DNA of 64,000 nucleotides from Mesohalobacter salilacus (GTDB lineage Bacteria; Bacteroidota; Bacteroidia; Flavobacteriales; Flavobacteriaceae), in assembly GCA_003931895.1 (NCBI GenBank), contig RRZV01000017.1, positions 1-64,000 of the forward strand, written 5' to 3'. Of the stretch, positions 54,903 through 60,292 are shown in pieces. Both the position numbers and the translations under genes were made by a program. Position 1 is the stretch's first letter, and every line of letters begins with the position of its first letter. The notes under the pieces were generated by a model, which ran no database searches, was not told the DNA's origin, and saw only the letters and a program-made list of their open reading frames with translations.

Positions 54903-55532
54903 TCACAACTCATCATCATAAGATTTCCTAATCAACTCTGCTTTTGAATTGATTTCAAGAGTCTTATAAATATTTTTGATATGACTTCTCACGGTGTCTA
55001 TAGAGATATACAAATCATCAGCAATCATTTTGTAGCTTTGCCCACTGACAATACCATCTACGATCTCGAGTTGACGTTTGGTGAGTTGGCTCTTAGGTTT
55101 TGGCTTATAAAAATTGGCAATTTTTCTTGCAATGGCCGGCGACATATATGAACCACCATTAGCAACGATTTCTATAGCTTCCTGAATTTTTTTTAGTGAA
55201 GTGCGTTTTGAGACATAAGAACAAGCGCCGGCACTTAAGGCTTTAAAGATCATATCCGTTTCTTCAAAAGTGGTTAAGATGATGACGTCTAAGTCAGGTG
55301 TGTTTTTCTTGATGAAAGGTAAAGACTCCACTCCACTTTTGCCTGGAAGTTGAATGTCTAAAAGTAAAATAAAGCCCGCGTCGTCATTACTTTTTTGCCA
55401 GTTTAAAAAGTCTTCAGCATTGCCAAATGTATTTAAAACACTAATGCCTTTAGTTTGCTCAAAAAAAGACACTAAACTTTCTAAAACAACCCTGTCGTCT
55501 TCTACAATTACGATATGTGTTTGGTTTTTCAA
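54903..55532 (-). CDS. NarL/LuxR-type response regulator
   Basis: Receiver domain at residues 1-120 with EDDR (acidic pocket near 10), the phosphorylated Asp in LLLDIQLPGKSG, and the switch Thr/Lys in ILTTFEETD and YVSKRTS. A LuxR-type HTH follows (about 145-205, LTKRQLEIVDGIVSG, DTVRSHIKNIYKTL). I place the start at the TTG at 55530-55532: the frame stays open upstream to an ATG at 55578-55580, but that adds 16 residues not found in this family, and the predicted promoter element (-7 at 55554-55561) lies inside that extension. The 209-residue form is the normal size. The cognate kinase is immediately upstream. Confidence 0.87.
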   Translation of the reverse strand: MKNQTHIVIVEDDRVVLESLVSFFEQTKGISVLNTFGNAEDFLNWQKSNDDAGFILLLDIQLPGKSGVESLPFIKKNTPDLDVIILTTFEETDMIFKALSAGACSYVSKRTSLKKIQEAIEIVANGGSYMSPAIARKIANFYKPKPKSQLTKRQLEIVDGIVSGQSYKMIADDLYISIDTVRSHIKNIYKTLEINSKAELIRKSYDDEL

Positions 55533-55553: not shown

Positions 55554-55604
55554 TGAATTTAAGCTAAAAATCAATAGCAAAAGTTCACATTATCATGTGG
55601 TTTT
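55554..55604 (-). promoter_or_regulatory. CACAT-N4-ATGTG operator and -7 element before the response regulator gene
   Basis: On the minus strand AAAACCACATGATAATGTG is followed after 24 bases by TAAATTCA (55554-55561 on the plus strand). Operator core: 55586-55599. The same 24 bp spacing occurs at the two other copies (58658-58708 and 59284-59333). Confidence 0.75.
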
Positions 55605-55609
55605 AAACT

Positions 55610-58600
55610 TTATAAATGTTGTGGTAATAACAACTCAATGCCAAAACCATCGGAAGTGTAAAAACTAAGTTTAGCATTGATGTGTTCAGCGCGCATTTTC
55701 ATGTTAGCTAAACCTTGACCAGTTGATGTTTTAAAGGCCTTTAAGTTTCCATTATCTTTAATCTTAAAACGACAGCATTTTTTTTCATTATAAATACTTA
55801 TCCCAACCTGTGTGGCATTTGAGTGTTTTAAAATATTGGTAATGGCTTCTTTGTAGATTAAAAAAAGATTTCTACGACAATTCAAGTCTAGTTTTTTGGA
55901 GACTGGCGTTCCTTTTATTTGGATATCATAAGTAATTCCAGCCGGCAGCAGATATTCTTCTGCATACTCACGCATCCTATCTACTAAATCTTCAACGCGG
56001 TCTTTTCGGCTGTCTATACTCCAGACAAAATCTCTCATTTGTGAAATGGTATTTCTACTCAAGGTGGTCAGGCGTTTTAATTTATGTTTGTCTATTTTGG
56101 TTTTAGCCTGCATCTCAAGCATTTCTGTTTGCATAGCCAATCCGGTGAGCATAGAGCCTACGTCGTCGTGTAAGTCGCTTGAGATTTTGGTGCGTAAGCG
56201 TTCTATAGCTAAGGCCTGATTAAGTTTATAGCGATAAAAAGCATAAAATAAACTCATAATAAAAATTACCAAAAGACTGATAAACCACCAGGTTTTATAA
56301 AAAATTTGGCTAACCATGATTGGAATTTCTATGCCTGCTTTGCTTTTATTCCCGTTGATATCTACCCCCTTTATTTTGATAGTGTATTCTCCAGCGGGCA
56401 ATTGATTATATCGAATAGTGCTATTATTACCTTGATAAAACCATTTATTTTCAAAGCCTTCAAGCATAGTATAATAAGTGTAATTTTCTTTATTGAAATA
56501 GTCTGGAATAGACCAAGATACCTTTAAATTTATGTCGTATGGCGATAGCTCAACTGGTGATTCTGTCAAATGATTAAATTGAAATAAAGTATCTTTTGAT
56601 TGATTATAAAACTCAAGCTGAGTAAAATTTAAAGCAGGAAGTTCTTTTTTCGTGGACAGGCTTTCCATAGAAAATTTAGTAATACCATTTAATCCACCAA
56701 AATAAAATTGCCCGTCTTCAGATTTGTATGCCGATGTATAATTAAATTCGTTATCAGCTATGCCATCTTTTTCAAAGTAATTTTGAATGTCTAGTGTCTC
56801 TAAATTTATTTTGCTTAAACCATTATACGTCGCTGCTATAACATTTTTATTGTCCACAGCTAAGATTGAAACAACGTTATTATCAGAGAGCCCAACTTGT
56901 TTATCTATAATTTTAAGGCTGTTTTGGTTTAGATTCAATCGGTTTATACCGCCACCAAAAGTTCCTATTAAAAGTTGGTCATTGATTTCTAAAAGTGATA
57001 AAATAGAGCTTTTACTTAATGAAGGTTTTGAGTTGATATGATAATGTGCCTGTATATTTCCGTTAAGATTAACTTTAAAAAGCCCATTGCTTTCTGTACC
57101 GACCCAAAGTACACTGTGATCCTGCTCACTTTGAATTAAAGTTTTGATAATAAAATCTTCATCAGGCTTCGTTTTAAATATAGGCCTGAATGATTTTGTT
57201 TTTGAATCTACTTGAATTAGCCTGAAAAGTGAATAACCTGTGATAAGAGAACCATCTTTTAACCGGATAATGGGGTTGGGTTTTGTTTCATTTAGGTAGG
57301 GGCTAAATTCACTGTAAAGCTTAAGTTTGTTCTTATTAAAATTTATTTCAATCAAATCATTGGTCACTGTATATGCAATATCATTTTCAATATCAGCGGT
57401 GAAATACCTTGCATCTTTTAATTTTTCGGAAGTATTCTGCAAGTAAACTGGCTGTTGAGAGCTATTTTTATATATTCTGTAAAGCTGATTTTCAGTTTCG
57501 CACATAGCTATTATATCGCCATTTTTCAAGGCAAAAAGACCTCTAAAACTCAGACCCCAATCCTTATTTTTTTGGTAAAGAATTTTGTTAAAATATTTAG
57601 GTTGCAGTTTGACTTTTAGAATACCATTATCCGTGCCTAACCAAAGTAGATTAGACTGGTCAACATAGGCACAAGTGATATTAGAAGACTTTAAGCTTTC
57701 TTTGATTTGATGAGTGTAATCAATTAATTGTCCGTTAGACTTTAAATAAAACAACTTTTTTTTGCTGGCAAACCAAATGTTATTGTTTTTATCTTCAACC
57801 GCAAAGTGAATAATAGCATTTTTATCTACTATTCTTTGACTAAATTCTAAATTTACATGACTATCTACACCTCCTTTACTTTCCGAAAAATAATAGTGCT
57901 GATTGCTGGAGTCAAAAAATGAACCTGCATAGTGAATGGTATGCCCGTAATAATCATAAGTATCTATGATTTTTTGGTTGATAACTTGTCCGTTTTGATT
58001 AAATATTGTGAGACCGTGATTAACGGTTGCCCAACAAATTTCATTATTTTGAGTAATATCCAGCGAGGTTAATCCAGCGCTTTTTCGCTCTAAAGACTTG
58101 ATTAAATGAAAGGTTTTGCCATCGTATTTTATAAGATGTTGTGTTTTTGTGCCATCGGGTTTGGGGTCATCATTTACAATCCATAAATTATCATCATGGT
58201 CTAAAGCTATATCTAACACTTCACCCTTAATTGCAGTTTTAAGACCTTTTATAGGGACTAACTTTTCTGTATTCAGGTCCATAACAAATAGCTTATGATT
58301 GGCAATATACCAAAGCTGGTTTGAAGTACTTTGGTATGCAAACTTCATGATATCTTCATAAGGAATATTATGAGGATTGTTTTTGTTATTATTAAAAACT
58401 TTAAATAGGTTTCCGTCATATTTCGTAATCCCTTGACGTGTGCCCAGCCACATAAACCCGTTTTTGTCCTGAACAATAGCATCTACATGCCTAAAGTTAA
58501 GACCGTCTGCTGTGGTTAGGCTTTTGATTTGTAGCTCATCTTGAGCTGGACTAAGTGTTGAAAATAATACAACACCCAAAAACGCACACCTATGTAAAAA

Positions 58601-58612
58601 ATTGATTATCAA
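55610..58612 (-). CDS. two-component sensor kinase with Reg_prop propeller and Y_Y_Y domain
   Basis: A 1000-residue membrane kinase. Order: signal peptide (about 1-23), Reg_prop beta-propeller repeats to about residue 680 (GFMWLGTRQGITKYDG, LLWLGTDNGILKV, VLWVGTESNGLFKV), a triple-Y domain (about 690-765), one transmembrane helix near 770-790 (TWWFISLLVIFIMSLFY in part), then HisKA_3 with the phosphorylated His in DLHDDVGSML near 814, and HATPase_c (GQGLANMKMRAE near 970). It senses an extracytoplasmic signal, typically a glycan or envelope cue in this family. The cognate NarL-type regulator lies immediately downstream, and CACAT-N4-ATGTG operators lie before the regulator and upstream of this gene. 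Confidence 0.92.
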   Translation of the reverse strand: MIINFLHRCAFLGVVLFSTLSPAQDELQIKSLTTADGLNFRHVDAIVQDKNGFMWLGTRQGITKYDGNLFKVFNNNKNNPHNIPYEDIMKFAYQSTSNQLWYIANHKLFVMDLNTEKLVPIKGLKTAIKGEVLDIALDHDDNLWIVNDDPKPDGTKTQHLIKYDGKTFHLIKSLERKSAGLTSLDITQNNEICWATVNHGLTIFNQNGQVINQKIIDTYDYYGHTIHYAGSFFDSSNQHYYFSESKGGVDSHVNLEFSQRIVDKNAIIHFAVEDKNNNIWFASKKKLFYLKSNGQLIDYTHQIKESLKSSNITCAYVDQSNLLWLGTDNGILKVKLQPKYFNKILYQKNKDWGLSFRGLFALKNGDIIAMCETENQLYRIYKNSSQQPVYLQNTSEKLKDARYFTADIENDIAYTVTNDLIEINFNKNKLKLYSEFSPYLNETKPNPIIRLKDGSLITGYSLFRLIQVDSKTKSFRPIFKTKPDEDFIIKTLIQSEQDHSVLWVGTESNGLFKVNLNGNIQAHYHINSKPSLSKSSILSLLEINDQLLIGTFGGGINRLNLNQNSLKIIDKQVGLSDNNVVSILAVDNKNVIAATYNGLSKINLETLDIQNYFEKDGIADNEFNYTSAYKSEDGQFYFGGLNGITKFSMESLSTKKELPALNFTQLEFYNQSKDTLFQFNHLTESPVELSPYDINLKVSWSIPDYFNKENYTYYTMLEGFENKWFYQGNNSTIRYNQLPAGEYTIKIKGVDINGNKSKAGIEIPIMVSQIFYKTWWFISLLVIFIMSLFYAFYRYKLNQALAIERLRTKISSDLHDDVGSMLTGLAMQTEMLEMQAKTKIDKHKLKRLTTLSRNTISQMRDFVWSIDSRKDRVEDLVDRMREYAEEYLLPAGITYDIQIKGTPVSKKLDLNCRRNLFLIYKEAITNILKHSNATQVGISIYNEKKCCRFKIKDNGNLKAFKTSTGQGLANMKMRAEHINAKLSFYTSDGFGIELLLPQHL

Positions 58613-58634
58613 AGTTATATTAGGTTAGTTTATC

Positions 58635-58642
58635 CAAAAGTA
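58635..58642 (-). promoter_or_regulatory. -7 element of the sensor kinase promoter
   Basis: On the minus strand TACTTTTG fits TAnnTTTG and ends about 23 bp before the kinase start codon. The CACAT-N4-ATGTG dyad at 58663-58676 overlaps the expected -33 region, so this promoter and the rightward one share the operator. Confidence 0.55.
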
Positions 58643-58657
58643 ATACATTTTAAATAT

Positions 58658-58708
58658 ATAACCACATTAATATGTGATTGAAGATTGTCAAAACTACTGT
58701 TAAATTGC
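58658..58708 (+). promoter_or_regulatory. CACAT-N4-ATGTG operator with promoter of the 58746 lipoprotein gene
   Basis: CACATTAATATGTG (58663-58676) followed by ATTGA and, 24 bases after the dyad, TAAATTGC (58701-58708). 23 of 24 bases around the dyad equal the copy at 59284, and the dyad-to-TANATTGC distance is identical. It lies in the divergent region of the kinase gene. Confidence 0.8.
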
Positions 58709-58745
58709 TAAAAATTATCTGGTATTTTTTTATAAATCAAAAATT

Positions 58746-59201
58746 ATGAAAACAAAAGACACACATTCAAGCAAGGTATTATTGTTTTTAATCATAAGCT
58801 CATGCCTTTTCAGTTGTAAAAAGAATATGAATTCACTTGAATCTTTTGAAAGTTTTGAGTTTAATCCAAATTATAAAACTATCTATACCAATTCAGAGGC
58901 TTTAAACTATCGAATTGATGAAATTTCTACTGAAAGCCAATCATTATCTAATACAAATAATCAAATAGAAAGTAGTAATAAGGATGCCGTAGAAAGTCTT
59001 AAACAACATAAGCCTAACTATAGTTATAAGCTAAAAAAAAATCCTACAGCTCCAGATATTTCTGCTATTATAGAAACGGTAAATCATAAATCTAAAATCT
59101 ACGAAAAGCAATTGCCAAAAGACTTTAAATATGCAATACAAGAAGTGGTTCTTTTTGAGTCAATAATTGAAGTTGAGTTAAATTCTTACTTTTCTAAGTA
59201 A
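58746..59201 (+). CDS. lipoprotein, function unknown, likely target of the adjacent two-component system
   Basis: A 151-residue protein with a lipobox ending at C24 (SCLFSCKKN). The mature part is charged and mostly polar, with a Ser/Asn-rich middle and a C-terminal helix (YAIQEVVLFESIIEVELN in part). I recognise no family. It is divergent from the sensor kinase gene and carries the operator and an unusual -7 element at 58658-58708, so it is the first predicted target of the response regulator. A hairpin with ACGCT/AGCGT near 59232-59247 may end its transcript. Confidence 0.65.
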   Translation: MKTKDTHSSKVLLFLIISSCLFSCKKNMNSLESFESFEFNPNYKTIYTNSEALNYRIDEISTESQSLSNTNNQIESSNKDAVESLKQHKPNYSYKLKKNPTAPDISAIIETVNHKSKIYEKQLPKDFKYAIQEVVLFESIIEVELNSYFSK

Positions 59202-59283
59202 ATCTTTGTTCCCTTTAAAGCTTAGAATTTTCACGCTGAAGCGTAAAGTCAAAATATTAAAAATTGATATTCTCAAAACAAAA

Positions 59284-59333
59284 TAACCACATCAATATGT
59301 GATTGACGCCGCTTGAAATACCCCATATATTGC
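59284..59333 (+). promoter_or_regulatory. CACAT-N4-ATGTG operator with promoter of the 59365 gene
   Basis: CACATCAATATGTG (59288-59301) followed by ATTGA and, 24 bases after the dyad, TATATTGC (59326-59333). It is nearly identical to the copy at 58658 and lies 32 bp before the gene start. Confidence 0.8.
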
Positions 59334-59364: not shown

Positions 59365-60093
59365 ATGAAAAAATTAATTTCAATCATTATGATTTTGCCT
59401 TTCATGGCATTAGCACAAGAAGAAGAGAAAGGAACGCTTATGTCGTTTACAGACTTAACGGTCAAAATGGGTCATGCAGCTCAATTTGAAGATGGAGTTA
59501 AAAAATGGAAAGAATGCTATGTTGAAGCTGGTGGTGAGAATAGCTGGAGCTTTTGGAAAAGAGTTCAAGGTGAAGGTGCTGTATATAGTTTTGTAGGTTA
59601 TATGGAAAATTGGGCAGAAATGGATGATGAAGGTGATGATACTGGTAAGGGTTGTGCTTCAATTGTGATGAGCTTTATCATGCCTCATGTCAAAAAAGTG
59701 AAATACAGCCTAGTTAGAAATATTCCTGAATGGAGCAAACAAAGCAAAGAAGATAATGTTAAAATTGTCTGGGAAACTAGTTTTAGGGTAAAAAATGGTA
59801 AACTTTTTAACGAAGTGGTTAAAAGTGTAACCGCTGTCATGAAAGATGTTGAAGGTGAGCCTAGAGGATATTGGTCATATGTTATTGGAGGTGATGAGCA
59901 TGAAGCTGACTACAATGTTGCAACGCTTTATGATAGCTATGCTGCCTTAGACAAAGATGAAGATAGTCCTTTCAAAATGTATGAAAAAGCAAAAGGCAAA
60001 AAGAAAGCCGATGAGATGAGAGATAAATGGGAAGACGCTGTAGATGACGCTTGGGGCTATATCTGGGAATACAAAAAGGAATTATCTAACTAA
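59365..60093 (+). CDS. exported protein with duplicated ABM-like domain
   Basis: A 242-residue protein with a signal peptide (cleavage near ALAQEEE, residue 17). The mature part looks like two copies of a dimeric alpha/beta-barrel (ABM-like) domain: VKMGHAAQFEDGVKKWKEC...WSFWKRVQGEGAVYSFVGYMENWAEMD and VKNGKLFNEVVKSVTAVM...YWSYVIGGDEHEADYNVATLYDSYAALD, each with the GK-x-F-x2-GVK and aromatic WxF/WxY pattern. Such domains bind or oxidise small ligands. It is preceded by the operator and ends at a strong terminator, so it is probably a one-gene transcript. Function unknown. Confidence 0.7.
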   Translation: MKKLISIIMILPFMALAQEEEKGTLMSFTDLTVKMGHAAQFEDGVKKWKECYVEAGGENSWSFWKRVQGEGAVYSFVGYMENWAEMDDEGDDTGKGCASIVMSFIMPHVKKVKYSLVRNIPEWSKQSKEDNVKIVWETSFRVKNGKLFNEVVKSVTAVMKDVEGEPRGYWSYVIGGDEHEADYNVATLYDSYAALDKDEDSPFKMYEKAKGKKKADEMRDKWEDAVDDAWGYIWEYKKELSN

Positions 60094-60118: not shown

Positions 60119-60157
60119 AAAGCCGGATAAAGATGAATAGTCTTGTCCGGCTTTTTT
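60119..60157 (+). terminator. intrinsic terminator after the ABM-like gene
   Basis: AAAGCCGGA / TCCGGCTTT, a perfect 9 bp stem, followed by a T-run. Confidence 0.88.
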
Positions 60158-60292
60158 TGATGTTCACTCTCTAAGAAAACCAAGCATCATTATTTACTCC
60201 GAGTTCTGCATTTAAAACTTAAATAATATTGTTAATAAGTTTCACTTCAAATAAAATTACAACACTAAAATTTAATTAAAAACAATTTCATC

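Follow-up and report, generated by a model that had tools for sequence, protein, structure and literature searches.

A spaced CACAT-N4-ATGTG inverted repeat marks the promoters of a probable two-component regulon in Mesohalobacter salilacus and its relatives

Results

Three identically spaced inverted repeats at a kinase-response regulator locus

In a 64-kb stretch of DNA from Mesohalobacter salilacus (contig RRZV01000017.1, positions 1 to 64,000; hereafter referred to as the window), the inverted repeat CACAT-N4-ATGTG (the dyad) occurs three times around the genes of a sensor kinase and a response regulator (RR) of the NarL/FixJ type. We consider that the three dyads are most probably operators of this adjoining RR (we put the probability at about 0.85), by which the RR would activate its own gene, a gene for a lipoprotein-like protein, and a gene for an exported-looking protein with two tandem ABM-like domains. 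At the level of the sequence, the motif, its spacing, its conservation, and its association with the RR and with the recognition helix of the RR are established. That the locus is a small two-component regulon had been proposed from the letters of the window (the original prediction), and this reading is now supported because the motif co-occurs with the regulator, has one preferred spacing across genera, co-varies with the recognition helix, and is retained as a promoter by ABM genes that are unlinked from the RR gene.

The dyads start at positions 55586 (minus strand), 58663 (plus strand), and 59288 (plus strand), exactly where the original prediction had placed them; 0.06 exact copies are expected in the window, and none of 100 shuffles gave three. 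Reading toward the gene, a TANNTT box follows each dyad after exactly 24 bases, as predicted (TAAATTCA, TAAATTGC, and TATATTGC). In the local intergenic DNA, 2.1% of positions match TANNTT, and the chance of finding it at +24 in three of three cases is ~1e-5 for a fixed orientation and 8e-5 for either orientation. Dyad 1 (CACATGATAATGTG, 55586-55599, minus strand) lies in the gap between the kinase and RR genes and reads toward the RR gene, with the −7 box TAAATTCA of the predicted RR promoter at 55554-55561 (minus strand) and no TTG at −33. Dyad 2 (CACATTAATATGTG, 58663-58676, plus strand) lies in the divergent gap between the kinase and lipoprotein genes and is abutted by ATTGA (58677-58681, plus strand), whose TTG, a candidate −33 element, is followed after 20 bp by TAAATTGC (58701-58708, plus strand), the −7 box of the predicted lipoprotein promoter. 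Dyad 3 (CACATCAATATGTG, 59288-59301, plus strand) precedes the ABM-like gene and is likewise abutted by ATTGA (59302-59306, plus strand), with the −7 box TATATTGC at 59326-59333 (plus strand). The original prediction had correctly noted that dyads 2 and 3 have 23 of 24 bases in common (ATAACCACAT[T/C]AATATGTGATTGA) and had missed the conserved TTG at −33 directly behind both of them. When the −12 to −5 register of the flavobacterial −7 box (PMC6847099) is applied, this TTG falls at −35 to −33, with A instead of T before it compared with a TTTG-like −33 element, and the dyad falls at −50 to −37, centered at about −43.5, so that its position relative to the predicted start is class II-like.

None of the three boxes conforms to the σA −7 box TAnnTTTG, and the original prediction was right in that they differ from the housekeeping form. 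It had further read them as activator-dependent. Two of the three, at 58701 and 59326, match TAnnTTGC and thereby the SM5 box TAnnTTGY, which the box at 55561 (TAAATTCA) does not, and activator dependence is therefore only one of two readings. To the earlier description we add that dyad 2 also overlaps the housekeeping promoter of the kinase gene: on the opposite side of the dyad and 20 bp from it lies TACTTTTG (58635-58642, minus strand), a TAnnTTTG box read from 58642 to 58635, and the dyad covers the −33 region of that promoter.

The search of the whole genome that the original prediction had called for revealed eight exact dyads in 2.84 Mb, of which three have TANNTT at +24, all in the kinase-RR locus; the remaining five have no such box there. 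If only exact dyads are counted, the M. salilacus regulon thus amounts to one locus of ~5 kb. When one mismatch was allowed in the window, no further dyad with TANNTT at +24 appeared; four appeared at two mismatches and five at three mismatches, in scattered places.

A promoter unit conserved in the Flavobacteriaceae

From the loci compared, we obtained 148 distinct oriented dyad contexts. In 65 of these, [AG]TTG (RTTG) stands directly behind the dyad, a feature that was partly selected by the search pattern, whereas the +24 offset was not. TANNTT lies at exactly +24 in 35 of the 65 RTTG contexts, with 4 at the runner-up offset, and in 6 of the 83 contexts without RTTG. Once aligned, the 35 sites read approximately A-NN-AC-CACAT-(S)AAN-ATGTG-ATTGAC-N18-TAnnTT, with GC or AG behind it in most cases (17 sites have G directly behind TANNTT and 11 have A); C precedes the dyad in 25 of the 35, and A or G follows it in all 35, the latter being selected by the pattern. 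This alignment defines a predicted promoter, AAC-CACAT-N4-ATGTG-ATTGAC-N18-TAnnTT(GC/AG), that is conserved within the family. A search of the M. salilacus genome with the extended consensus, allowing three mismatches, returned dyads 2 and 3 and eight places with three mismatches each, compared with two matches for the reversed control; dyad 1 was missed, being too distant from that consensus.

The fit of the sites depends on the direction in which they are read. Ten exact dyads lie no more than 330 bp upstream of an ABM start, and every one of them has both RTTG and TANNTT at +24; this count omits genome G069, in which the dyad is ~490 bp off, and eight dyad-less ABM homologues. The box is TAnnTTGC in 8 of these 10 promoters and TAnnTTTG in none. 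Toward the RR gene, TANNTT stands at +24 in 10 of 18 dyads and at +23 in a further 5, and RTTG is present in 11 of 18. Toward the kinase gene, TANNTT stands at +24 in 0 of 18, and a full TAnnTTTG is found at offsets of 17-23 in 13 of 18. The target direction is hence characterized by a fixed phase and a degenerate box, and the RR promoters are intermediate.

The dyad follows the regulator and its recognition helix

We compared the distribution of the motif with that of the RR. Among 27 genomes of the genus, an RR ortholog (cut-off E ≤ 1e-40) is present in 8, and the ABM gene is present in the identical 8 (Fisher 4.5e-7 for RR versus ABM). The motif occurs in these eight and in G312, where the match has no box at +24. 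In two of the eight genomes (G301 and G322), the ABM gene is away from the RR gene, on another contig or ~0.78 Mb off, and these unlinked ABM genes keep the dyad, the TTG, the 24-base spacing, and TANNTT. Among 299 genomes of the family, the RR was found in 16 at E ≤ 1e-45 and in 13 at E ≤ 1e-60, and the motif gave 37 matches in 22 genomes (reversed control, 7). It is present in 12 of the 13 genomes that pass the stricter RR cut-off versus 10 of the 286 others (Fisher p ~1e-14). The thirteenth genome (G076) has a dyad that is followed by the box at +24 and not by RTTG, and 2 of the 10 (G129 and G212) encode a distant RR with the identical helix type. In 246 genomes from other families of the order, we found six motif matches versus three for the control, none of the six with TANNTT at +24, so the motif is near background there.

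The dyad also co-varies with the recognition helix of the RR, which in M. salilacus is SYKMIADDLYISIDTVRSHIKNIY. For this comparison, RRs were gathered by protein similarity and not by motif (16 + 8 + 10, the last being those with a readable helix), and a dyad was counted if it was exact, or had one mismatch and a spaced box, within the RR locus. A dyad is present at 18 of 19 loci encoding regulators of the SYKxIA...DTVRxHI type and at 0 of 15 encoding regulators with other helices, which include TNTIKAH, STVRKH, and RTIETH. Overall identity does not explain this division because RRs of 33-35% identity (L025 and L027) have the dyad and RRs of 39-42% identity (L029-L032 and L048) do not. The count omits L173 (which is the G042 genome), L181 (helix unreadable), L098 (found via the motif), and L019 (28.9% identity, other helix, no dyad), as well as the genus RRs of G300, G311, and G322, each preceded within 400 bp by an exact dyad, and that of G304, which has none. 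The 18 loci with a dyad include one, reached by the protein search, from a metagenome-assembled genome (MAG) of the Balneolaceae, whose RR is 45% identical and has the SYKxIA...DTVRxHI helix; behind its kinase-RR pair lies, at L177:2221-2310, a dyad followed after 24 bases by TAAATT, without RTTG. This locus may be contamination. The gene behind the site encodes a lipoprotein-like protein with Tyr-rich and Asn/Arg/Ser-rich parts, and the ABM homologue of the MAG (L017) has no dyad.

A model for the promoters and its alternatives

We infer that, in response to a signal, a phosphorylated RR dimer would bind the 6-4-6 inverted repeat CCACAT-N4-ATGTGR, centered at about −43.5, rest against the −33 TTG, and aid RNA polymerase at a weak −7 box (TAnnTTGC or TAnnTTCA), all at one fixed spacing. 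In this manner, it would turn on the RR gene, the lipoprotein gene, and the exported tandem-ABM gene. Where dyad 2 faces the kinase gene, the RR would lie over the −33 region of a promoter with a consensus box and would most likely limit kinase expression, as the variable phase over the −33 region on that side fits occlusion better than contact activation.

Because two of the three −7 boxes in the window are SM5-like, we considered whether an alternative sigma factor preferring TAnnTTGY reads the target promoters, with the RR being an extra activator or not needed, which we regard as unlikely although worth keeping in mind. In Flavobacterium psychrophilum, SM5 (TAnnTTGY) is set apart from the σA variants and described as most likely belonging to an alternative sigma factor (PMC9723704), and the ABM promoters, with TAnnTTGC in 8 of 10 and TAnnTTTG in none, agree with this. 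However, most RR promoters that contain this dyad have different boxes (TAAATTCA, TAACTTTA, TAATTTCA, and others), and the variation of the base behind TANNTT (17 G and 11 A among the 35 sites) indicates that one operator pairs with several −7 variants. It is improbable that the RR is mainly a repressor that blocks the polymerase at the dyads. Although the dyad adjoins or partly overlies the −33 region and lies right over it in the kinase direction (TAnnTTTG at offsets of 17-23 in 13 of 18), the combination of a spacing exact to the single base with a non-consensus −7 box in the target direction fits contact by an activator better; a repressing operator could tolerate slippage, as is seen on the kinase side.

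The 10 of 286 family genomes that have a motif match and no close RR would be explained if the dyad were recognized by some other DNA-binding protein encoded elsewhere and its linkage to the RR were incidental. We think this very improbable, given the motif in 12 of 13 RR genomes, its co-variation with the RR helix, the unlinked ABM sites in RR-bearing genomes, and the distant RR with the same helix in two of those ten genomes. We give next to no credence to chance repeats or to a recent duplication of one promoter. The 23 of 24 bases common to dyads 2 and 3 do mean that the lipoprotein promoter may duplicate the ABM promoter, but the −33 to −7 spacer differs between the two copies, the promoter unit is kept in several genera, and 0.06 dyads were expected; a chance origin of the dyads is ruled out by this expectation together with the family counts, the spacing preference, and the 10 of 10 ABM promoters. 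A CRP-type site was rejected as well, the arms of the dyad being in the opposite order to those of the CRP site.

Several observations weigh against the dyads being operators of the RR with the promoter anatomy proposed here. The RR-direction sites fit more poorly than the target-direction sites, in both spacing and RTTG, and 30 of the 65 RTTG contexts have no TANNTT at +24; some of these are reverse orientations, some are RR sites with the box at +23, and some are apparently coding DNA. In Flavobacterium johnsoniae, the −33 motif is described as much less evident than the other promoter elements (PMC6847099), and that the TTG is a −33 element is therefore our interpretation. The Fisher p-values overstate independence because the species are related. 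In G304, G088, and G063, the 400 bp before the RR gene contain no exact dyad, although G088 and G063 have one-mismatch sites, and the one SYKxIA...DTVRxHI regulator without a dyad in its locus (G195) has a site ~9 kb away. Further, 8 of 11 ABM homologues (L011 and L013-L019) have no dyad, and the genomes of two of these (L011 and L017, the latter being the Balneolaceae MAG) hold an RR of the SYKxIA...DTVRxHI type.

Genes of the locus and targets in relatives

The genes behind the dyads are as originally predicted. The RR gene (54903-55532, minus strand, TTG start) encodes a receiver (REC) domain (PF00072, E 2.1e-20) followed by a GerE helix-turn-helix (HTH) domain (PF00196, E 2.6e-14), both above cut-off and in the order of NarL/FixJ-type regulators. 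It adjoins the kinase gene (55610-58612, minus strand), whose product combines a Reg_prop propeller, Y_Y_Y, and HisKA_3, the last above cut-off; HATPase_c is slightly below its own (24 versus 26.4 bits). Proteins matching the kinase are present in 136 of 149 family genomes, and such sensors are therefore common. The RR is the sole receiver-GerE protein found in the genome search, which returned two GerE domains altogether. The second (L156, G000:C59:23319-23477) belongs to what, judged by eye, is a Y_Y_Y-like membrane protein with no receiver, and its helix is different; the gene beside it looks glycoside hydrolase-like by eye.

The orphan lipoprotein-like gene (58746-59201, plus strand; 151 amino acids) is divergent from the kinase gene, and its product has SCLFSC near the N terminus, a putative lipobox recognized by eye. 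No relative of it was found in the loci compared. Located between the kinase and ABM genes, it is preceded by a promoter copy of its own; in two other loci (L009 and L106), the gap between these two genes likewise holds two dyads.

The ABM-like gene (59365-60093, plus strand) is a recurring target in relatives. Its exported-looking product gave no match in Pfam up to E 10, in NCBIfam up to 0.1, or in the PDB by sequence. An AlphaFold model (mean pLDDT 86.9, pTM 0.80) predicts two tandem ABM-like domains, and its best PDB matches are 2pgc, 3mcs (a putative monooxygenase), and 5f9p (TM by query 0.48-0.54, 7-15% identity); judged by this model, the fold is that of a dimeric alpha+beta barrel of ferredoxin-like domains. 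Behind the gene lies a probable terminator (60119-60158, plus strand) with a 12-nt stem (AAAGCCGGATAA/TTGTCCGGCTTT) and a T run to 60158. The terminator scanner, with a loop limit of 8, reported none here, where the loop is 12. Because this stem-loop and T run follow the ABM gene, we think its cotranscription with the SnoaL and TlpA genes unlikely. We note that in one relative (L009:8001-8717 / L102:1501-2217) the ABM frame has one in-frame stop behind a seemingly intact promoter. Further, L011 and L022/L091 are probably from one genome (the G600 and G042 coordinates are equal), which, if so, has two ABM paralogues, one adjoining the kinase with the promoter and the other without it.

Other genes located behind spaced sites encode DinB-like, acyltransferase, esterase, DUF4440-like (below cut-off), and RidA-family proteins, a short-chain dehydrogenase, an epimerase, the N-terminal part of a prolyl oligopeptidase, and an alpha/beta hydrolase; the products of three others are very large and match HYR, lectin, fn3, or beta-helix models. 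Of the 14 target proteins scanned, two had no domain match. Many have exported-like starts by eye, and several are akin to enzymes that modify small molecules. One (L123:1599-2567) has an N terminus resembling that of the DUF4440-like protein of L085, followed by an alpha/beta hydrolase domain. In G069 (L080:4954-7118), two more spaced sites lie ~1 kb apart and some 45 kb from the kinase gene, and they precede two genes, one DinB-like and with a twin-arginine-like start, the other encoding a 348-amino acid protein without a Pfam match.

Discussion

Judged from the sequence comparisons, we consider the regulon to be new and the system to be of a known kind; the geometry is unusually clean, and the helix corresponds to the site. 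CACATNNNNATGTG was not found printed in the literature searched, and, by the titles and abstract openings of part of the matches, no Reg_prop/Y_Y_Y-HisKA_3 kinase with a NarL-type partner has been tied to a DNA site there. A cis element with one preferred geometry, combined with a helix signature, offers a route to target prediction, and the question of whether TAnnTTGY promoters depend on a special sigma factor or on an activator is brought within reach of an in vitro experiment. As a tentative extension, which we hold to be possible and somewhat more doubtful than not, one operator would have two outcomes decided by the −7 box: flavobacterial TAnnTTGY promoters would be, at least partly, activator-dependent σA promoters, whose one-base-short box would need an activator docked at −44, and in the divergent gap the same dimer would shut off the kinase gene, whose box is the consensus. 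The helix SYKxIA...DTVRxHIKxIY would then be a code for CACAT-N4-ATGTG. If so, such a helix code could be readable across Bacteroidota and beyond, and the regulons of many Reg_prop/Y_Y_Y kinases would be predictable from sequence.

Our RR has the REC and GerE architecture of NarL and NarP of Escherichia coli. NarL recognizes the heptamer consensus TACYYMT in a 7-2-7 arrangement. The window contains no 7-2-7 TACYYMT site, the plus strand at 58601-58760 contains no TACYYMT heptamer, and the RR scores 80.4 against an NCBIfam NarL cut-off of 250; thus, we reject the RR as a NarL ortholog, and we refine the NarL/LuxR-type binding suggested in the original prediction in that the dyad is not a NarL-type site and has the geometry of ComA sites. 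The best solved relatives of the RR by sequence are VraR chains (7ve6 and 4gvp; E ~5e-24). VraR and LiaR belong to autoregulated envelope-signal systems, and their binding site differs from CACAT-N4-ATGTG. The partner kinase in M. salilacus is a large Reg_prop/Y_Y_Y sensor, unlike the short VraS-type kinase.

At the level of the −7 box, the target promoters resemble the SM5 class of F. psychrophilum, with TAnnTTGY at −12 to −5; there, promoter mutagenesis confirmed that transcription of remFG-sprCDBF is supported by the SM4 and SM5 elements (PMC9723704). The section on SM5 in that paper describes no upstream operator, whereas here the box is tied, at a fixed spacing, to the dyad and the −33 TTG. 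The closest counterpart of the dyad itself is the site of ComA of Bacillus subtilis, a regulator of the same HTH family, which is an inverted repeat of two hexamers with an optimal spacer of 4 nt, and for which class II sites exist (PMC4797271). We therefore describe the dyad as a ComA-like 6-4-6 inverted repeat, which is a likeness of geometry and not membership. The hexamers differ (TTGCGG for ComA, ATGTGR here), as do the phylum and the type of promoter. Further, ComA promoters use inverted repeats together with direct repeats, and the class II inverted repeat is weak there (PMC4797271), whereas in M. salilacus and its relatives a single inverted repeat at about −44 seems to be enough.

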